Position numbers and translations under genes: made by a program. This document shows positions 23,020-48,393 of a DNA stretch of 64,000 nucleotides, piece after piece. The notes beneath the pieces are model-generated. The model saw only the letters and a program-made list of their open reading frames with translations, had not been told where the DNA came from and did not search any database. Every line of letters begins with the position of its first letter. Position 1 is the stretch's first letter. This DNA is from Niveispirillum lacus (GTDB lineage: Bacteria > Pseudomonadota > Alphaproteobacteria > Azospirillales > Azospirillaceae). The stretch spans positions 1 through 64,000 of the forward strand of contig NZ_NOXU01000026.1 of assembly GCF_002251795.1 (NCBI RefSeq). Reading direction: 5' to 3'.

Positions 23020-23916
23020 TTACCGTTTCAAAATGCGGTTCAGCACACCATCCAATTGATCCAGCGTGCGATAATGGATCTGCAATGTCCCCTTCTTGCC
23101 GGTACCAGCCAGTGTAACCTTCAGCCCAAGCGCCAGTGAGACTTCACGCTCAAGGGCCACAGTGTCAGGCGCCTTTTCCTTGACCGCCTTTGTGAGCACC
23201 AGCGGTTCCGCCGACATCTGCTTTACCAGCGCCTCGGTCTGGCGCACATTCAGTTCGCGCTTGATGACCTCCTGCGCCGCGACCATCGGGTCGGGGGCCG
23301 TCAGCAGGGCACGAGCATGGCCCATCGACAGGCTGCCCTCTTGGACCAGATGTTTGACCTCGTCCGGCAGGGCCAGGAGACGCAACATGTTGGCAACATG
23401 GGACCGGCTTTTGCCGACTGAACGCGCCAAGTCCTCCTGTGTGTGGTCGAACTCATCCATCAAGCGTTTATAGCCTTCCGCCTCTTCCAAAGGCGTCAGA
23501 TCGGAACGCTGGATATTCTCGACCAGCGCAATCTCCAGCGCCTCGCGGTCGGTGAGGGTGCGGACCAGAACCGGCACTTCATGCAGGCCGGCCAACTGAG
23601 CCGCTCGCCAGCGCCGTTCACCGGCGATGATCTCATAACTGGTGTGCCCAGGGGCAGCACCGGGCTCTTTGCGCACCAGCAATGGCTGCAGGATACCGCG
23701 CTCCCGCACACTTTCGACAAGGGCGGTCAGTGCCTCCTCGTCAAAGCGGCGCCTTGGCTGGAATTTGCCCGGATGAACCTGATCAATGGGCAGCAATCGG
23801 GTCAGCCGGACCCGATCAACCTGCTGCTCTTCCTCGTTCCCCGCAGCTTCGCCGAACAGGGCGGACAGACCGCGCCCAAGGCCAGTGCGCGAATTGTTCT
23901 TTTTTGGTTCATCCAT
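23020..23916 (-). CDS. parB: Chromosome partition protein ParB
   Basis: A 298-residue CTP-dependent centromere-binding clamp. The N-terminus has the ParA-interacting GLGRGLSALFGE region. The ParB/Srx CTPase domain carries GERRWRAAQ (about 99-107), and a helix-turn-helix (EDLARSVGKSRSHVANMLRLL) reads parS. A KorB-like C-terminal dimerisation segment follows. The start overlaps the end of parA by 8 bp, so the two are translationally coupled. Perfect parS sites lie 1.4 and 4.8 kb upstream. It closes the DUF6489-to-parB operon and keeps the origin region near a cell pole by the parABS system. Confidence 0.97.
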   Translation of the reverse strand: MDEPKKNNSRTGLGRGLSALFGEAAGNEEEQQVDRVRLTRLLPIDQVHPGKFQPRRRFDEEALTALVESVRERGILQPLLVRKEPGAAPGHTSYEIIAGERRWRAAQLAGLHEVPVLVRTLTDREALEIALVENIQRSDLTPLEEAEGYKRLMDEFDHTQEDLARSVGKSRSHVANMLRLLALPDEVKHLVQEGSLSMGHARALLTAPDPMVAAQEVIKRELNVRQTEALVKQMSAEPLVLTKAVKEKAPDTVALEREVSLALGLKVTLAGTGKKGTLQIHYRTLDQLDGVLNRILKR

Positions 23917-24727
23917 AAGCCAACTGCCGCTTCCGCTCGCGCTTCAACATTTCACCCGCCAGATGGATATAGGCCTGTGCACCCGCCGACTTGTGGTCAT
24001 AGAGCAGCACCGGCTTGCCATGGCTGGGCGCCTCGGACACCCGCACATTGCGGGGGATCACCGTCTCATAAACCTTTTCGCCGAAGAAGCCACGCACATC
24101 GGCGGCCACCATGTCGGACAGGTTATTACGACGGTCGAACATCGTCAGGACCACGCCGTTAATATCAAGCGTGGGGTTGAAGGCGCGCTTCACGCGCTCA
24201 ATGGTACGGATCAGGTGCGAAAGCCCTTCCAGGGCATAAAATTCGCACTGCAATGGCACCAGCACAGCATCAGCCGCCGCCAGCGCATTCAGGGTCAGCA
24301 ATCCCAGTGCCGGTGGGCAGTCGATCAAGATGTAATCGAACCCGCCGGATGATTTTTCCAGACTGTCCTTCAGCCGGAACTCGCGACGTTCGACATTGAC
24401 CAGTTCGACCTCGGCCCCTGACAGATCGACATTGGCCGTCACCACCCACAGGCCGGGAACAGAGGTCGCTACTGCGACCTCTTCCACCGCCAGGTCGGCG
24501 AACAGCAGGTCATAGATGCCAAATTCCCGGTTGCTCTGTGGAATGCCTAACCCGGTGGAGGCATTGCCCTGAGGGTCATTGTCAATGATCAGCACCCGCT
24601 TGCCACAAGCAGCCAGCGCGGTGGCCAGATTAATGGTGGTCGTGGTTTTGCCCACGCCCCCCTTCTGGTTGGCCAGGGCGATCACACGGGCACGGTGGGC
24701 GGGAAGGGGCAGGGCGGCGCTCGGCAC
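23909..24727 (-). CDS. parA: Chromosome partition ATPase ParA
   Basis: A 272-residue deviant Walker ATPase that forms a DNA-associated gradient pulling ParB-parS complexes apart. The deviant Walker A is KGGVGKTTT (about 22-30) and Walker A' the DNDPQGNAST loop; switch II is in IDCPPALGLL. Length and motifs are typical of chromosomal ParA (Soj). ATG 24727 is used. It overlaps parB by 8 bp and follows rsmG at 40 bp, within the same operon. Confidence 0.97.
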   Translation of the reverse strand: MPSAALPLPAHRARVIALANQKGGVGKTTTTINLATALAACGKRVLIIDNDPQGNASTGLGIPQSNREFGIYDLLFADLAVEEVAVATSVPGLWVVTANVDLSGAEVELVNVERREFRLKDSLEKSSGGFDYILIDCPPALGLLTLNALAAADAVLVPLQCEFYALEGLSHLIRTIERVKRAFNPTLDINGVVLTMFDRRNNLSDMVAADVRGFFGEKVYETVIPRNVRVSEAPSHGKPVLLYDHKSAGAQAYIHLAGEMLKRERKRQLAYG

Positions 24728-24767: not shown

Positions 24768-25442
24768 TTATCGCGGTGAAAGCTCGGTAAGACGCAGGAT
24801 GGTTCCGGCCGGATCAGTCTGGCTGGGGAACCGCTCGACCCGCATATTCCAGGAATCCTGCACGGCGGTCAATTCATCCTCCGCCGTCCTGCCCTTCGGA
24901 AATAGGCAGGTGCCGCCCAGTTTCAGCATTCCATGGGCCCAAGGCAGCAACAGCGCCAGTTCCGCCAGGGCACGGGCAGACACAACATCAGCCGGAGGGG
25001 TATCCGCTACTTCAATCCGAACCGGGTGAACCGTCACCGGGGCGCCTGTCACCCGCGCCACCTCACGCAGAAAAGCAGCCTTGCGTACATCCGACTCGAC
25101 CAGATGCACCTCCGGCACACCCAGGATGGCCAGAACCAGACCCGGGAACCCAGCACCAGACCCCAGATCCACCAGCACCTGGGCACCTTCCGGGATCAGG
25201 CTGAAGACCTGGGCACTGTCGGCTAGATGCCGCGACCAGAGATCATCCAAGGTTGACTTGGACACAAGATTGATGGCCGGGTTCCACTTGTGCAGATGCG
25301 CCGCATAGAGTTCCAGCCTGGCCAGTGTTTCACGTGAAACACCGAAGCGGGACTGAAACTCATGCGGGCTCATTGGCGGCGGGCCGGGCGGCCGGGGCAT
25401 TGGTGGCAATTTCAGCGGCTTGGACGGTTTACGCGGCGCCAC
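24768..25442 (-). CDS. rsmG: 16S rRNA G527 methyltransferase (GidB)
   Basis: A 224-residue (shorter if a later start is used) SAM-dependent methyltransferase that methylates N7 of G527 in 16S rRNA. The SAM motif is [15 protein letters not shown], followed by [16 protein letters not shown] and SARALAEL, all typical of RsmG. Possible starts are ATG 25442, which overlaps mnmG by 14 nt, ATG 25400 and ATG 25373; the early N-terminus is proline-rich and unlike the family, so 25373 is quite possible. A perfect parS site lies in its coding sequence (25326-25341). Confidence 0.94.
25326..25341. promoter_or_regulatory. parS site 1, perfect
   Basis: TGTTTCACGTGAAACA, the exact 16-bp consensus parS palindrome to which chromosomal ParB binds. 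It lies within rsmG and encodes in part the peptide VSRET of RsmG, so coding and centromere functions overlap. It is the closest perfect parS to parB (about 1.4 kb). Confidence 0.97.
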
Positions 25443-28683: not shown

Positions 28684-28699
28684 TGTTTCACGTGAAACA
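28684..28699. promoter_or_regulatory. parS site 2, perfect
   Basis: TGTTTCACGTGAAACA, the exact consensus, fills the gap between the ferredoxin stop codon (28700-28702) and the mnmE ATG (28677). It therefore occupies the position where an SD for mnmE would normally be. Confidence 0.97.
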
Positions 28700-35255: not shown

Positions 35256-36206
35256 TTACCGTGTGGCCGCGTACCGGGCTTCCATCGCGTCCCATAGAAC
35301 GGATTCCAGTGCCGACCCATCCAACTGGTTGATCTGCTGGATGCCGGTAGGGCTGGTGACATTGATCTCTGTCAGATAATCCCCGATGACATCGATACCA
35401 ACAAAGATCATGCCTTGCGCACGCAAGGTGGGGCCGATCGCCTCGCAAATCTCCTGCTCTCGCCGGGTCAACTGGGTTTTGCCGGCACTCCCCCCAGCAT
35501 GGAAATTTGCCCGCGCTTCGCCATCCTGGGGGATGCGTGACACGGCACCGGCGGGTTTGCCATCGATCAGGATGATGCGTTTGTCGCCCTTACGAATCTC
35601 CGGCAGATATTTTTGTACAATGATCGGCTCGCGGTAAAGCTGGGTGAAGGTTTCCAGCAGGGCGCCCAGATTCTCATCATCGGGTTTCACGTGAAACACA
35701 CCCGAACCACCGTTACCGAACAAGGGCTTAACAATAATGTCCTTCCATTCCGCACGGGCAGCCAGCACCTCTTCCGCCGACGATGTGATCACGGTTGGCG
35801 GCATCAGATCGGGAAAATGGGTAACAAACAGCTTTTCGGGTGCGTTGCGCACCGCGGCCGGGTCATTCACCACCAGGGTCTTGGGGTGGATATGTTCCAG
35901 CAGATGGGTGGCGGTGATATAGGCCATGTCGAAGGGTGGGTCCTGCCGCATCAACACCATGTCCATGGTCGACAGGTCGATTACTTCTGCCGCGCCCATG
36001 GCGTGATGATTACCGCGTTCACGGCGGACCTGCATCGGGCGCACCTTGGCGAACAGCCTGTTGCCACGCAGGGCCAGATCACGGGGGTGATAATGCCACA
36101 GCGTATGGCCGCGACGCTGAGCCTCCAGCGCCATCATAAACGTGCTGTCGGTATCGATGTTGATGGACTCGATCGGGTCCATCTGGATGGCGACCTTCAG
36201 GGTCAT
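35256..36206 (-). CDS. gshB: Glutathione synthetase
   Basis: A 316-residue ATP-grasp ligase joining gamma-glutamylcysteine and glycine to make glutathione. N-terminal MTLKVAIQMDPIESINIDTDSTF is the classic start. IIVKPLFGNGGSGVFHV and the C-terminal FVGIDVIGDYLTEINVTSPTG are ATP- and metal-binding regions. ATG 36206 is used; a longer frame upstream adds an arginine-rich segment not seen in the family. A one-mismatch parS site lies inside the coding sequence (35683-35698). gshA is not in the window. Confidence 0.96.
   Translation of the reverse strand: MTLKVAIQMDPIESINIDTDSTFMMALEAQRRGHTLWHYHPRDLALRGNRLFAKVRPMQVRRERGNHHAMGAAEVIDLSTMDMVLMRQDPPFDMAYITATHLLEHIHPKTLVVNDPAAVRNAPEKLFVTHFPDLMPPTVITSSAEEVLAARAEWKDIIVKPLFGNGGSGVFHVKPDDENLGALLETFTQLYREPIIVQKYLPEIRKGDKRIILIDGKPAGAVSRIPQDGEARANFHAGGSAGKTQLTRREQEICEAIGPTLRAQGMIFVGIDVIGDYLTEINVTSPTGIQQINQLDGSALESVLWDAMEARYAATR
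35683..35698. promoter_or_regulatory. parS site 3, one mismatch
   Basis: GGTTTCACGTGAAACA has the perfect 14-bp core of parS and differs from the consensus only at the first position (G for T). It lies within gshB, about 8 kb from the putative oriC and 12 kb from parB, so it may extend the ParB loading zone toward the origin. Confidence 0.8.
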
Positions 36207-42708: not shown

Positions 42709-43773
42709 TCAATCCCTTGTGTCAGGTTTCCAATCCCGTATCAACCCGGCCAAACGAGATACGTTTTCCGGTGATGTTTCCTTAATAATGCCGTGACCCA
42801 GGTTAAAAATGAAGGGTCTGTTGCCAAGAGTTTCCAGCAGATCAAGGACGGCACGGTCCATGGCCTCGCCGCCGGCGATCAACAGAACCGGGTCCAGATT
42901 TCCCTGAACAGCAACCTTGTGCTGCAGGTGTTTGGCAGCCCACGACGCAGGTACACCCGGGTCCAGCGATACGGCATCCACACCCGCCTGTTCAACAAAC
43001 CCTTCCAGGTTCAGTCCCGCCGTGCGCGGAAAACCGATAATCGGCGTGCCGGGATGCCGTTCCTTCAACGCCGCCGTGATCCGCCGTGTCGGGGCCACAA
43101 CAAAACGCTGGAAATCAGGCGCAGACAGCGCACCAGCCCAACTGTCGAACAGTTGCACCAGTTCGGCACCGGCCTGGATCTGCATAGACAGATACTCAAC
43201 CGTCGCTTCCACCAGGATATCAATCAGCCGGTTAAAGCCGGCAGGGTCGGTATAGGCAAAACGCTTCACATGGGCGTATTCCTTCGACCCCCCCCCTTCG
43301 ACCATGTAACAGGCCACGGTCCAGGGCGAGCCGGCGAAACCAATCAGGGCCGTCCGGTCATCCAGAGCAGCCCGAATGCGTGATACCGTCTCGTACACAG
43401 GTGCCGCCCGCCGATGCAGCCCATCCAAGTCCAGCTTCAGCAGACCTTGCTGATCACGGATGGCATCCAGCACCGGCCCTTCGCCTTCCGCGAAGCGCAA
43501 GCCTTGCCCCAGTGCGTGGGGGATGATCAGAATATCGGAAAACAGAATCGCAGCATCCATGCCATAGCGGCGCAAGGGTTGCAGCGTGACCTCGCAGGCA
43601 AGTTCAGGGTTCATGCAAAGGTCGAGGAACCCGCCAGCCTGTGCCCGAACCTGCCGATATTCCGGCAAATAGCGACCCGCCTGCCGCATCAGCCAGAAAG
43701 GCGGGGGTGTTTGAGCCTGACCGGCAAGGGCGGCCAGCATTTTCTTCTTCGGTGCAGGAACGACAGAGTTCAT
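42709..43773 (-). CDS. hemE: Uroporphyrinogen decarboxylase
   Basis: A 354-residue enzyme that decarboxylates uroporphyrinogen III to coproporphyrinogen III. The substrate motif FWLMRQAGRYLPEYR and the catalytic Asp region ILFSDILIIPHALG are exact family patterns; the C-terminal FNLGHGIIKET is also typical. ATG 43773 gives MNSVVP; a GTG at 43779 is an alternative. It is transcribed away from the origin, as in Caulobacter, where hemE borders oriC. Confidence 0.97.
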   Translation of the reverse strand: MNSVVPAPKKKMLAALAGQAQTPPPFWLMRQAGRYLPEYRQVRAQAGGFLDLCMNPELACEVTLQPLRRYGMDAAILFSDILIIPHALGQGLRFAEGEGPVLDAIRDQQGLLKLDLDGLHRRAAPVYETVSRIRAALDDRTALIGFAGSPWTVACYMVEGGGSKEYAHVKRFAYTDPAGFNRLIDILVEATVEYLSMQIQAGAELVQLFDSWAGALSAPDFQRFVVAPTRRITAALKERHPGTPIIGFPRTAGLNLEGFVEQAGVDAVSLDPGVPASWAAKHLQHKVAVQGNLDPVLLIAGGEAMDRAVLDLLETLGNRPFIFNLGHGIIKETSPENVSRLAGLIRDWKPDTRD

Positions 43774-43799
43774 AGGCACAACCCGGATGACGGAGAGCG

Positions 43800-44000
43800 A
43801 TAAGGCTGCCGGACTTTATCCCAACACCTCTCTTAAAACTTAACTTTTTTAATGAAAGGATAGGAGAGGTAGTAGGTCCTGTGGATAACGGTAATTCCTT
43901 CTTGTCCGCATTTTTGTCCACAAACAGGGTCGATCCCAGGCTTGTGGACAAAAACTGTGGAAAACTTTCTGGATACCGATGCAAGAGCCGCGTGAATGCT
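43800..44000. other. Putative chromosomal origin of replication (oriC)
   Basis: The non-coding stretch between hemE and the PPDK regulator gene has an AT-rich section (about 43831-43860) beside four DnaA-box-like nonamers: TGTGGATAA at 43880-43888 (perfect box, reverse), TTGTCCACA at 43914-43922, TGTGGACAA at 43943-43951 and TGTGGAAAA at 43956-43964. The hemE side and the PPDK regulator side match the known Caulobacter origin (hemE-oriC-RP001), and genes on both sides run outward. The parABS cluster lies 16 kb away. The boundaries given are approximate. Confidence 0.88.
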
Positions 44001-44209
44001 GGGTTTACTGGGATCATTGCGATATGGGGACAATCCGGCTGTGCTGCCGGAGTCGTCCTTGATTCTCAGGTAAACTCCCAGATTTAATCCCAGCCCGCGC
44101 AACAGGGCCGATAAAGTCGGGCTTGCCAGGGATAGAAAAGCCCGGCTACGCATTTGAGGCGCGTTCACACACATCCGTCCCCGATATATCCCCAGGAGCG
44201 GTTCACAGG

Positions 44210-45121
44210 ATGCATCCCGGCGAACACCATGGCAGCCATATCAAGGCGCCCACTGCACCCCGGAATTTCCACCTGCATCTTGTCTCCGATGCGACGGGGG
44301 AGACGATCAATTCTGTCGCCCGCGCCTGTGTCAGCCAGTTTGATCAGGTGCATCCGATTGAGCATTTCTGGAACCTGGTCCGCACCGAGCGCCAGTTGGA
44401 CATGGTGTTGGAAGGTATCCGGGAAAATCCCGGTCTGGTGATGTTCACCCTGGTGAATGAGAAACTACGTCACAAATTGCAGGATACATGTCGGGAAATC
44501 GGCATTCCCAGCATTTCAGTGCTGGACCCGCTGATCAACGCGCTGGGCAATTATCTGGGCCTGCAGAGCCAGTCGAAACCGGGGCGCCAGCATGCCCTGA
44601 CCGCCGAATATTTCGGACGCATCGATGCCATGGATTTTGCCCTCAACCATGACGATGGGCAAAGCGCCTGGGCTCTGCATGATGCCGATGTTATTCTGGT
44701 CGGTGTCAGCCGAACATCGAAGACCCCGACCTGTATCTATCTGGCCAACCGCGGCATCAAGGCGGCCAATATCCCCTATGTGCCCAATTGTCCGCTGCCG
44801 CCGGAACTGGATCAACTGACCCGACCCTTGATCGTCGGGCTGACCAAGGACCCGGAACGACTGGTCCAGATCCGTCGCAACCGGCTGAAACTCCTTAACC
44901 AGGGTGACGACACGTCCTACACCGACCCCGAACGGGTAAGAGAGGAGTTGTTGGAAGCGCGGCGCCTGTTCACCCGTAAGGGCTGGGCAGTCATTGATGT
45001 GTCACGCCGATCAATTGAAGAGACGGCGGCTGAAGTGATGATGCTGCTGGCCCGTCGCCGTCCACAGGTGATCGCCGCTGCCGCCGCTGCCACTGGCGAT
45101 GTATCCAAGGGGAAGGATTGA
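44210..45121 (+). CDS. Pyruvate, phosphate dikinase regulatory protein (DUF299)
   Basis: A 303-residue kinase/pyrophosphorylase that switches PPDK (or PEP synthetase) by phosphorylation and phosphorolysis. Start FHLHLVSDATGETINSVARA and the P-loop GVSRTSKT (about 164-171) are standard DUF299 features. It is the RP001 homologue next to Caulobacter oriC. ATG 44210 follows AGGAGCGGTTCACAGG; the open frame extends to 44123, but the extra residues do not look conserved. Its stop overlaps the start of maf by one base (TGATG). Confidence 0.95.
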   Translation: MHPGEHHGSHIKAPTAPRNFHLHLVSDATGETINSVARACVSQFDQVHPIEHFWNLVRTERQLDMVLEGIRENPGLVMFTLVNEKLRHKLQDTCREIGIPSISVLDPLINALGNYLGLQSQSKPGRQHALTAEYFGRIDAMDFALNHDDGQSAWALHDADVILVGVSRTSKTPTCIYLANRGIKAANIPYVPNCPLPPELDQLTRPLIVGLTKDPERLVQIRRNRLKLLNQGDDTSYTDPERVREELLEARRLFTRKGWAVIDVSRRSIEETAAEVMMLLARRRPQVIAAAAAATGDVSKGKD

Positions 45122-47909: not shown

Positions 47910-48393
47910 CTGCCGGTTACAGCCTGTGTTTCATATGAAACAACGATAGGATTGCGCCCAGGCCGACGATCAACGGGGCCGGACAGCACGCTTTACGCCG
48001 GTTTCCTGCAAAGGATTGCCGCTCTGTCCATTCCGCAGGTGGACAAAGACAAACTCGTGGCAAAAGCCGCGACCATTCTGACCAGCATAGCGAAGACCGG
48101 GGCTGCGATCTCTCCGCTTGGTCCAACACCCGTTTCGCCCGGTGCAGAAGATTCTGGATCTGCGCAACCTCAAGAAACAGGCATTGGACACAATGTTCGA
48201 CCTGCGGGCCTTTCTTGTTCTGATGCGTGGTTCGACGCTGTCCCGCTGGGGTTGGGGGGCGAGCAGGTTGAGGCTTGGATCAAGTTAACCTCGGCCTGGT
48301 ACAGCAGCAGGAGAGGGGAACCCCTGCCTATTGACGGGTCTATGATCTGTCATCACCATGCTTGTACTGCACCGCAACATGGATGGCGCCTGC
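47910..48393. other. Gap after dnaQ: parS-like palindrome and possible gene remnant
   Basis: The 484 bp hold TGTTTCATATGAAACA (47927-47942) close to the dnaQ stop. They also include a short frame at about 48118-48288 encoding peptides such as HPFRPVQKILDLRNLKKQ with good codon use but no clear start or SD, possibly a remnant. A GTTGAGGCTTGGATCAA sequence at 48267-48283 matches the leuS-lptE repeat at 16 of 17 positions. No complete gene can be supported. Confidence 0.5.
47927..47942. promoter_or_regulatory. parS-like palindrome with CATATG centre
   Basis: TGTTTCATATGAAACA has the same TGTTTCA...TGAAACA arms as parS but TA replaces the central CG. It is a perfect 16-bp palindrome. It may be a weak ParB site, a Noc-type site or a decoy; a terminator role is unlikely because it has no loop or T-run. 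Confidence 0.55.

Follow-up and report, generated by a model that had tools for sequence, protein, structure and literature searches.

Whether the intergenic region between hemE and the gene for a PPDK regulatory protein is the replication origin of the main chromosome is the question raised by this locus of Niveispirillum lacus. The window, i.e., the whole stretch of DNA that was analysed (64 kb), is the first part of a 266,796-bp contig (C15) in a 31-contig draft genome of 4.97 Mb. A sequence-only reading had placed the chromosomal oriC here, pointing to four DnaA boxes within 85 bp (43880-43964), one perfect in reverse orientation and three near matches, and a re-scan found these boxes at the same positions. 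We estimate a probability of about 0.96 that the 430-bp region at 43780-44209 represents the main-chromosome oriC, of the Caulobacter/Rickettsia type, on the basis of its sites, their conservation in near relatives, the gene context and the turn of GC skew in a relative. This reading is supported, with the gene context, the box cluster, the nearby parS sites, the conservation among the nearest relatives and the absence of a competing cluster at the dnaA loci examined all pointing the same way, and the likely Niveispirillum origin is fixed at base level.

Gene context and chromosomal position

The region is bounded on the left by hemE, encoding uroporphyrinogen decarboxylase (42709-43779, - strand; Pfam URO-D, 2.9e-119), and on the right by the gene encoding the PPDK regulatory protein of the RP001/COG1806 type (44210-45121, + strand; Pfam Kinase-PPPase, 1.2e-95). 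These Pfam assignments bear out the earlier proposal that the two genes flank the gap and point outward as in Caulobacter. To the right of the regulator gene, the + strand encodes Maf, shikimate dehydrogenase, CoaE and an exonuclease, as identified by Pfam. The regulator protein is 95 and 96% identical to those of two Niveispirillum sp., 96% identical to those of an Azospirillum sp. MAG and of alpha proteobacterium AAP38, and 90% identical to that of Niveispirillum irakense.

A total of 59 genomes were searched, comprising the genome itself and, according to the labels of the search tool, 10 from its genus, 24 from its family and 24 from its class; the 13 without a match to the regulator were left out. 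The nearest gaps form a set of 29, including the gap studied here and leaving out one locus (L043, genome G025), while the further gaps form a set of 17 (6 from the same family and 11 from the same class), in which G025 was re-fetched as L181. A placement with hemE on one side and the COG1806/PPDK regulator gene on the other, which characterizes alphaproteobacterial hemE-type origins, was likewise found in relatives; hemE adjoins the regulator gene in all but one of 30 loci and in 14 of the 17 loci of the second set, G025 having been missed in the former and counted among the 14. For the three loci without a hemE motif (G038, G044 and G053), the gap was taken as up to 700 bases preceding the regulator gene, and the G053 sequence is cut by the contig end.

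Genes for chromosome partitioning are found to the left of the gap, with parB at 23020-23916 (- strand; Pfam ParB_N, HTH_ParB and ParB_C) and parA at 23909-24727 (- strand; Pfam AAA_31 and CbiA). The sequence-only reading had put parABS 16 kb from the origin; parB and parA (23020-24727) actually lie 19-21 kb away. Its three parS sites on one side were recovered, all on the + strand and left of the gap: two perfect sites at 25326-25341 and 28684-28699 and one with 1 mismatch at 35683-35698. These are all three of the matches with at most one mismatch in the genome, at 8.2-18.6 kb from the gap, an arrangement expected of a parABS-linked primary chromosome origin, with parS near oriC. A degenerate parS-like palindrome with 2 mismatches, TGTTTCATATGAAACA, was also observed at 47927-47942, across the origin from the three better matches.

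Because the genome is a draft, chromosome-wide skew was taken from G006, a relative of the same genus assembled in 5 contigs, in which the regulator gene is located at 2,592,828 of the 3,397,866 bp of contig C1 and the orthologous box cluster at 2,592,497-2,592,582. Skew was computed from 100 stretches of 20 kb in 34-kb steps, covering 59% of the chromosome and keeping stretches of odd G+C content. This check had been named beforehand as one that could overturn the assignment, and the minimum of the cumulative GC skew fell in the stretch that contains the orthologous gap and its cluster (2582405-2602404), with the maximum at 815-835 kb and the antipode of the cluster at approx. 0.894 Mb. As this minimum is shallow over the range 2.55-2.64 Mb, skew alone places the origin only to within tens of kb, and the box cluster narrows it further. 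The octamer GGGNAGGG, which we take to be a KOPS-like motif, reached its cumulative maximum in G006 at 917-937 kb; its cumulative minimum was offset from the gap by 60-110 kb to the left.

In the window itself, cumulative GC skew in 2-kb steps was lowest at 43001-45000, and on the whole contig skew changed sign nearby; all four 12-kb bins on the left, ending at 48 kb with a bin that straddles the gap, were negative, and 16 of the 18 bins to the right were positive. On this contig, GGGNAGGG showed no turn at the gap (11 vs 7 in the left bins and 36 vs 16 in the right bins). In another relative, G012, the cumulative value of GGGNAGGG was lowest at 2.83 Mb and had risen by 3.05 Mb, as compared to positions of 2.88 Mb for the gap and 3.13 Mb for dnaA; plain GC skew over 20 stretches of this genome gave no clear minimum. 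A second dip, with reversed GGGNAGGG polarity, was observed on the single contig of G012 at 0.22-0.44 Mb (L184 and L185), which is perhaps an inversion or an assembly matter.

An origin located at dnaA, as in many bacteria, would make the box cluster no more than a promoter region, regulated by DnaA, for hemE or the PPDK regulator gene. Promoters too can carry DnaA boxes and the gap serves two divergent genes; in addition, in 4 of 10 genomes (G017, G022, G043 and G046), dnaA is found at positions 367-653 of its contig, as if it had been chosen to begin the record. However, among the 10 dnaA loci located, none of the 7 that were examined for box groups (2.3-3.5 kb each; G000, G006, G012, G017, G022, G028 and G031) contained at least three boxes within 150 bp, and dnaA of G006 lies 238 kb from both the box cluster and the skew minimum. 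The available text of a published study also reports that dnaA is not conserved close to the origin in Rhodospirillales (PMC8116508). We consider an origin at dnaA very improbable, and setting it there would err by approx. 240 kb in the complete relative G006.

The DnaA box cluster

Box 1, a perfect TTATCCACA, is located at 43880-43888 on the - strand, with 7 of its 9 columns invariant among the 11 gaps of the genus. Each of the other three boxes carries 1 mismatch. Box 2, TTGTCCACA, at 43914-43922 on the + strand, is invariant in 9/9 columns and box 4, TTTTCCACA, at 43956-43964 on the - strand, in 8/9, while box 3, a second TTGTCCACA at 43943-43951 on the - strand, is poorly kept (1/9 columns). 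Overall, the window contains 13 sites with at most one mismatch, twice as many as in shuffled sequences (6.6 +- 2.4). The perfect 9-mer is not rare genome-wide, with 26 occurrences as compared to 19 for a reversed control, and lone boxes therefore carry little weight.

The density of the cluster, which is greater than elsewhere in the sequence scanned, is in keeping with a hemE-type origin. Among 50 sites in the 264 kb of the contig that were scanned, the only group of at least three boxes within 120 bp was the one in the gap, and among 216 sites in 2.0 Mb sampled from G006 the only such group was the orthologous cluster. These observations also bear on the possibility that the cluster is a site for DnaA titration or reactivation (datA/DARS-like) and that the true origin occupies another nearby gap, which would be compatible with a skew that places the turn only within tens of kb. 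A second group of three or more boxes is absent from the 264 kb, however, and both the AT-rich stretch next to the strong box and the position between hemE and the regulator gene suit an origin; we give this possibility a very small chance. That the four boxes represent a chance cluster, to which the single mismatches in three of them might lend some weight, can practically be dismissed, as the densest 100-bp stretch never held more than 2 sites in 60 Markov-1 simulations of the window (no more than 1 in 57 of them and 2 in the other 3) and boxes 1, 2 and 4 are largely invariant across the 11 genus gaps.

A different box order, lacking the extended first box described below, was observed in three same-family gaps (L044 of G015, L165 of G032 and L181 of G025), in which TTATCCACA or TTATCCCCA on the + strand is followed approx. 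42 bp on by a box on the - strand.

Conserved anatomy of the gap

Alignment of the 11 genus gaps showed 91 of 430 columns to be invariant. Boxes 1, 2 and 4 together with an extension of box 1 account for 31 invariant columns out of 36, as compared to 21 out of 297 outside the named elements; except for the four boxes, the elements were picked once the alignment had been viewed, and their conservation numbers are therefore descriptive. The extension, CGGTAATTC, at 43889-43897, is invariant in 7 of 9 columns and represents nine bases that are kept beyond what a DnaA box requires.

The extended box 1 (box followed by CG[GT]N[AG]AT[TC]) was found in 28 of the 29 nearest gaps, including the one studied here, the exception being G015 (L044), and in none of the 17 further gaps (6 from the same family and 11 from the same class). 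By rank, it was present in 11/11 genus, 17/24 same-family and 0/11 same-class gaps. Its use as a family-wide mark was rejected on these counts, and its absence from all further gaps indicates that it is a mark of nearer lineages only. Moreover, 5 of the 17 further gaps hold at most one box with no more than one mismatch; with the extended box missing in all 17 and these five nearly free of boxes, the architecture in its details does not hold for the class as a whole. A common origin map, without CtrA sites, is shared by 28 of the 29 nearest gaps.

The AT-rich segment with TTAA repeats that had been noticed beside the boxes was located at 43833-43861. Its letters are not conserved (2/29 columns invariant); its placement is, as 27 of the 28 gaps with an extended box have their most AT-rich 30-mer beginning 47-62 bp to the left of box 1. 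As judged on composition alone, this segment provides the AT-rich unwinding region adjoining the boxes that is expected of a hemE-type oriC. Because it represents the AT-rich side to the left of box 1, with the same polarity as in E. coli oriC, 43833-43861 is likely the melting site and a probable DNA unwinding element.

Three further elements were recognized. The weak DnaA-box-like site TTGTCCGCA, at 43902-43910 on the + strand, is present in 10 of the 11 genus gaps and invariant in 8/9 columns. The weak site TTGTCCCCA, with a W-box-like TCCCCA, was identified at 44025-44033 on the - strand, and in the alignment block that matches it an exact TTATCCCCA on the same strand was found in 10 of 29 gaps. 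The TTATCCCA element, at 43816-43823 on the + strand, is invariant in 7 of 8 columns in the 11 genus gaps and could possibly serve DnaA as a weak site or belong to the upstream region of hemE.

Taken as an origin, the gap would be expected to work as follows. DnaA, which is encoded elsewhere, would bind box 1 and boxes 2-4, aided by the weak sites on the right, and the resulting complex would melt the AT-rich stretch at 43833-43861 just to the left of box 1. The helicase would then be loaded at the melted stretch and, on firing, two forks would depart in opposite directions. The nearby parS sites would be copied next and presumably moved by ParAB.

Several other elements were sought. A DnaA-trio (BUS) reading of the GTAGTAGG-like stretch to the left of box 1 was rejected under a rule of at least three NAN trios on the unwinding side, no more than 16 bp from the box (from the available methods text of PMC8287927), as this gap has 2 trios. 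At least three trios were found in 6 of 28 gaps as compared to 20.5% of shuffled flanks, i.e., no better than chance; the count reaches 4 in G007, a very near relative, and 3 in E. coli oriC. A sigma-70 promoter scan of 43700-44300 identified none, which leaves room for other promoter types, and an Rfam search of 43500-44500 yielded no structured RNA at E<=1.

Putative methylation sites and comparison with known origins

GANTC is the CcrM site. A block with two such sites, GAGTCGTCCTTGATTC, was found at 44050-44065 on the + strand, approx. 85 bp to the right of box 4 and 145 bp to the left of the regulator gene, with 12 of its 16 columns invariant in the genus. GANTC-N6-GANTC occurs in 12 of the 29 nearest gaps, namely all 11 of the genus and one from the same family, and in none of the 17 further gaps. 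The degenerate block GANTCGTCCNNGANTC was found once in the 4.97-Mb genome, with no occurrence of a reversed control, and twice in 2.0 Mb of G006, one of these copies being at the origin. Among 226 GANTC sites in 264 kb of the contig, the sole pair at 11-bp spacing is the oriC block; pairs at 10, 12, 13 and 21 bp also occur on this contig. The genome also encodes a GcrA-family protein (the control search matched Caulobacter and, oddly, Sulfolobus) and a RAMA-domain protein (the control search matched Caulobacter only), which fits with the presence of CcrM.

The block may possibly be a methylation-sensitive promoter or origin element. A more specific proposal, which we regard as speculative and rather unlikely, is that the GANTC pair acts as a methylation switch, which would be hemimethylated after passage of the fork until CcrM acts and, via GcrA or directly, would gate either re-firing of oriC or an origin-borne promoter of the PPDK regulator gene, as a lineage-specific replacement for the CtrA control of Caulobacter. 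Through the pair, CcrM methylation would be connected to the copying of the origin in a specific way that can be put to the test.

Control by CtrA itself received no support. The TTAA repeats had been described as not spaced like CtrA boxes, and no TTAA-N7-TTAA was indeed found in the gap, even with one mismatch; the same was true for all 29 nearest gaps, while 1 of the 17 further gaps (G035) contains the motif. CtrA sites of the Caulobacter type were rejected for the nearest gaps.

The position of oriC between hemE and the COG1806 gene was determined by experiment in Caulobacter and by prediction in Rickettsia, according to the available text of PMC1914354. The gap shares its two boundary genes with Cori of Caulobacter crescentus (hemE-oriC-CC0001/COG1806) as described there and, as far as Cori is described in the accessible part of PMC4285127, also an AT-rich segment and several DnaA sites, among them weak TCCCCA sites that resemble W-boxes. 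In the same account, the strong box of Cori is the G-box TGATCCACA, whereas it is TTATCCACA here, and Cori has five CtrA sites in contrast to the lack of TTAA-N7-TTAA in all 29 nearest gaps. The gene pair is also shared with the oriC of Rickettsia prowazekii and R. typhi (hemE-RP001/COG1806), in the portion of PMC1914354 consulted; the Rickettsia origins are approx. 82% A+T and are reported with CtrA and IHF sites, unlike the gap studied here with regard to CtrA. A narrow literature search returned no report on an oriC of Niveispirillum or Azospirillum among the matches listed.

Escherichia coli oriC (L182) resembles the gap in that its AT-rich side lies to the left of an identically oriented CTGTGGATAAC box and differs in its gene context, mnmG/mioC. 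The E. coli origin is under GATC/SeqA control. The hemE-oriC-COG1806 position is thus already known in relatives, and the Niveispirillum gap is an ordinary, well-supported chromosomal origin.
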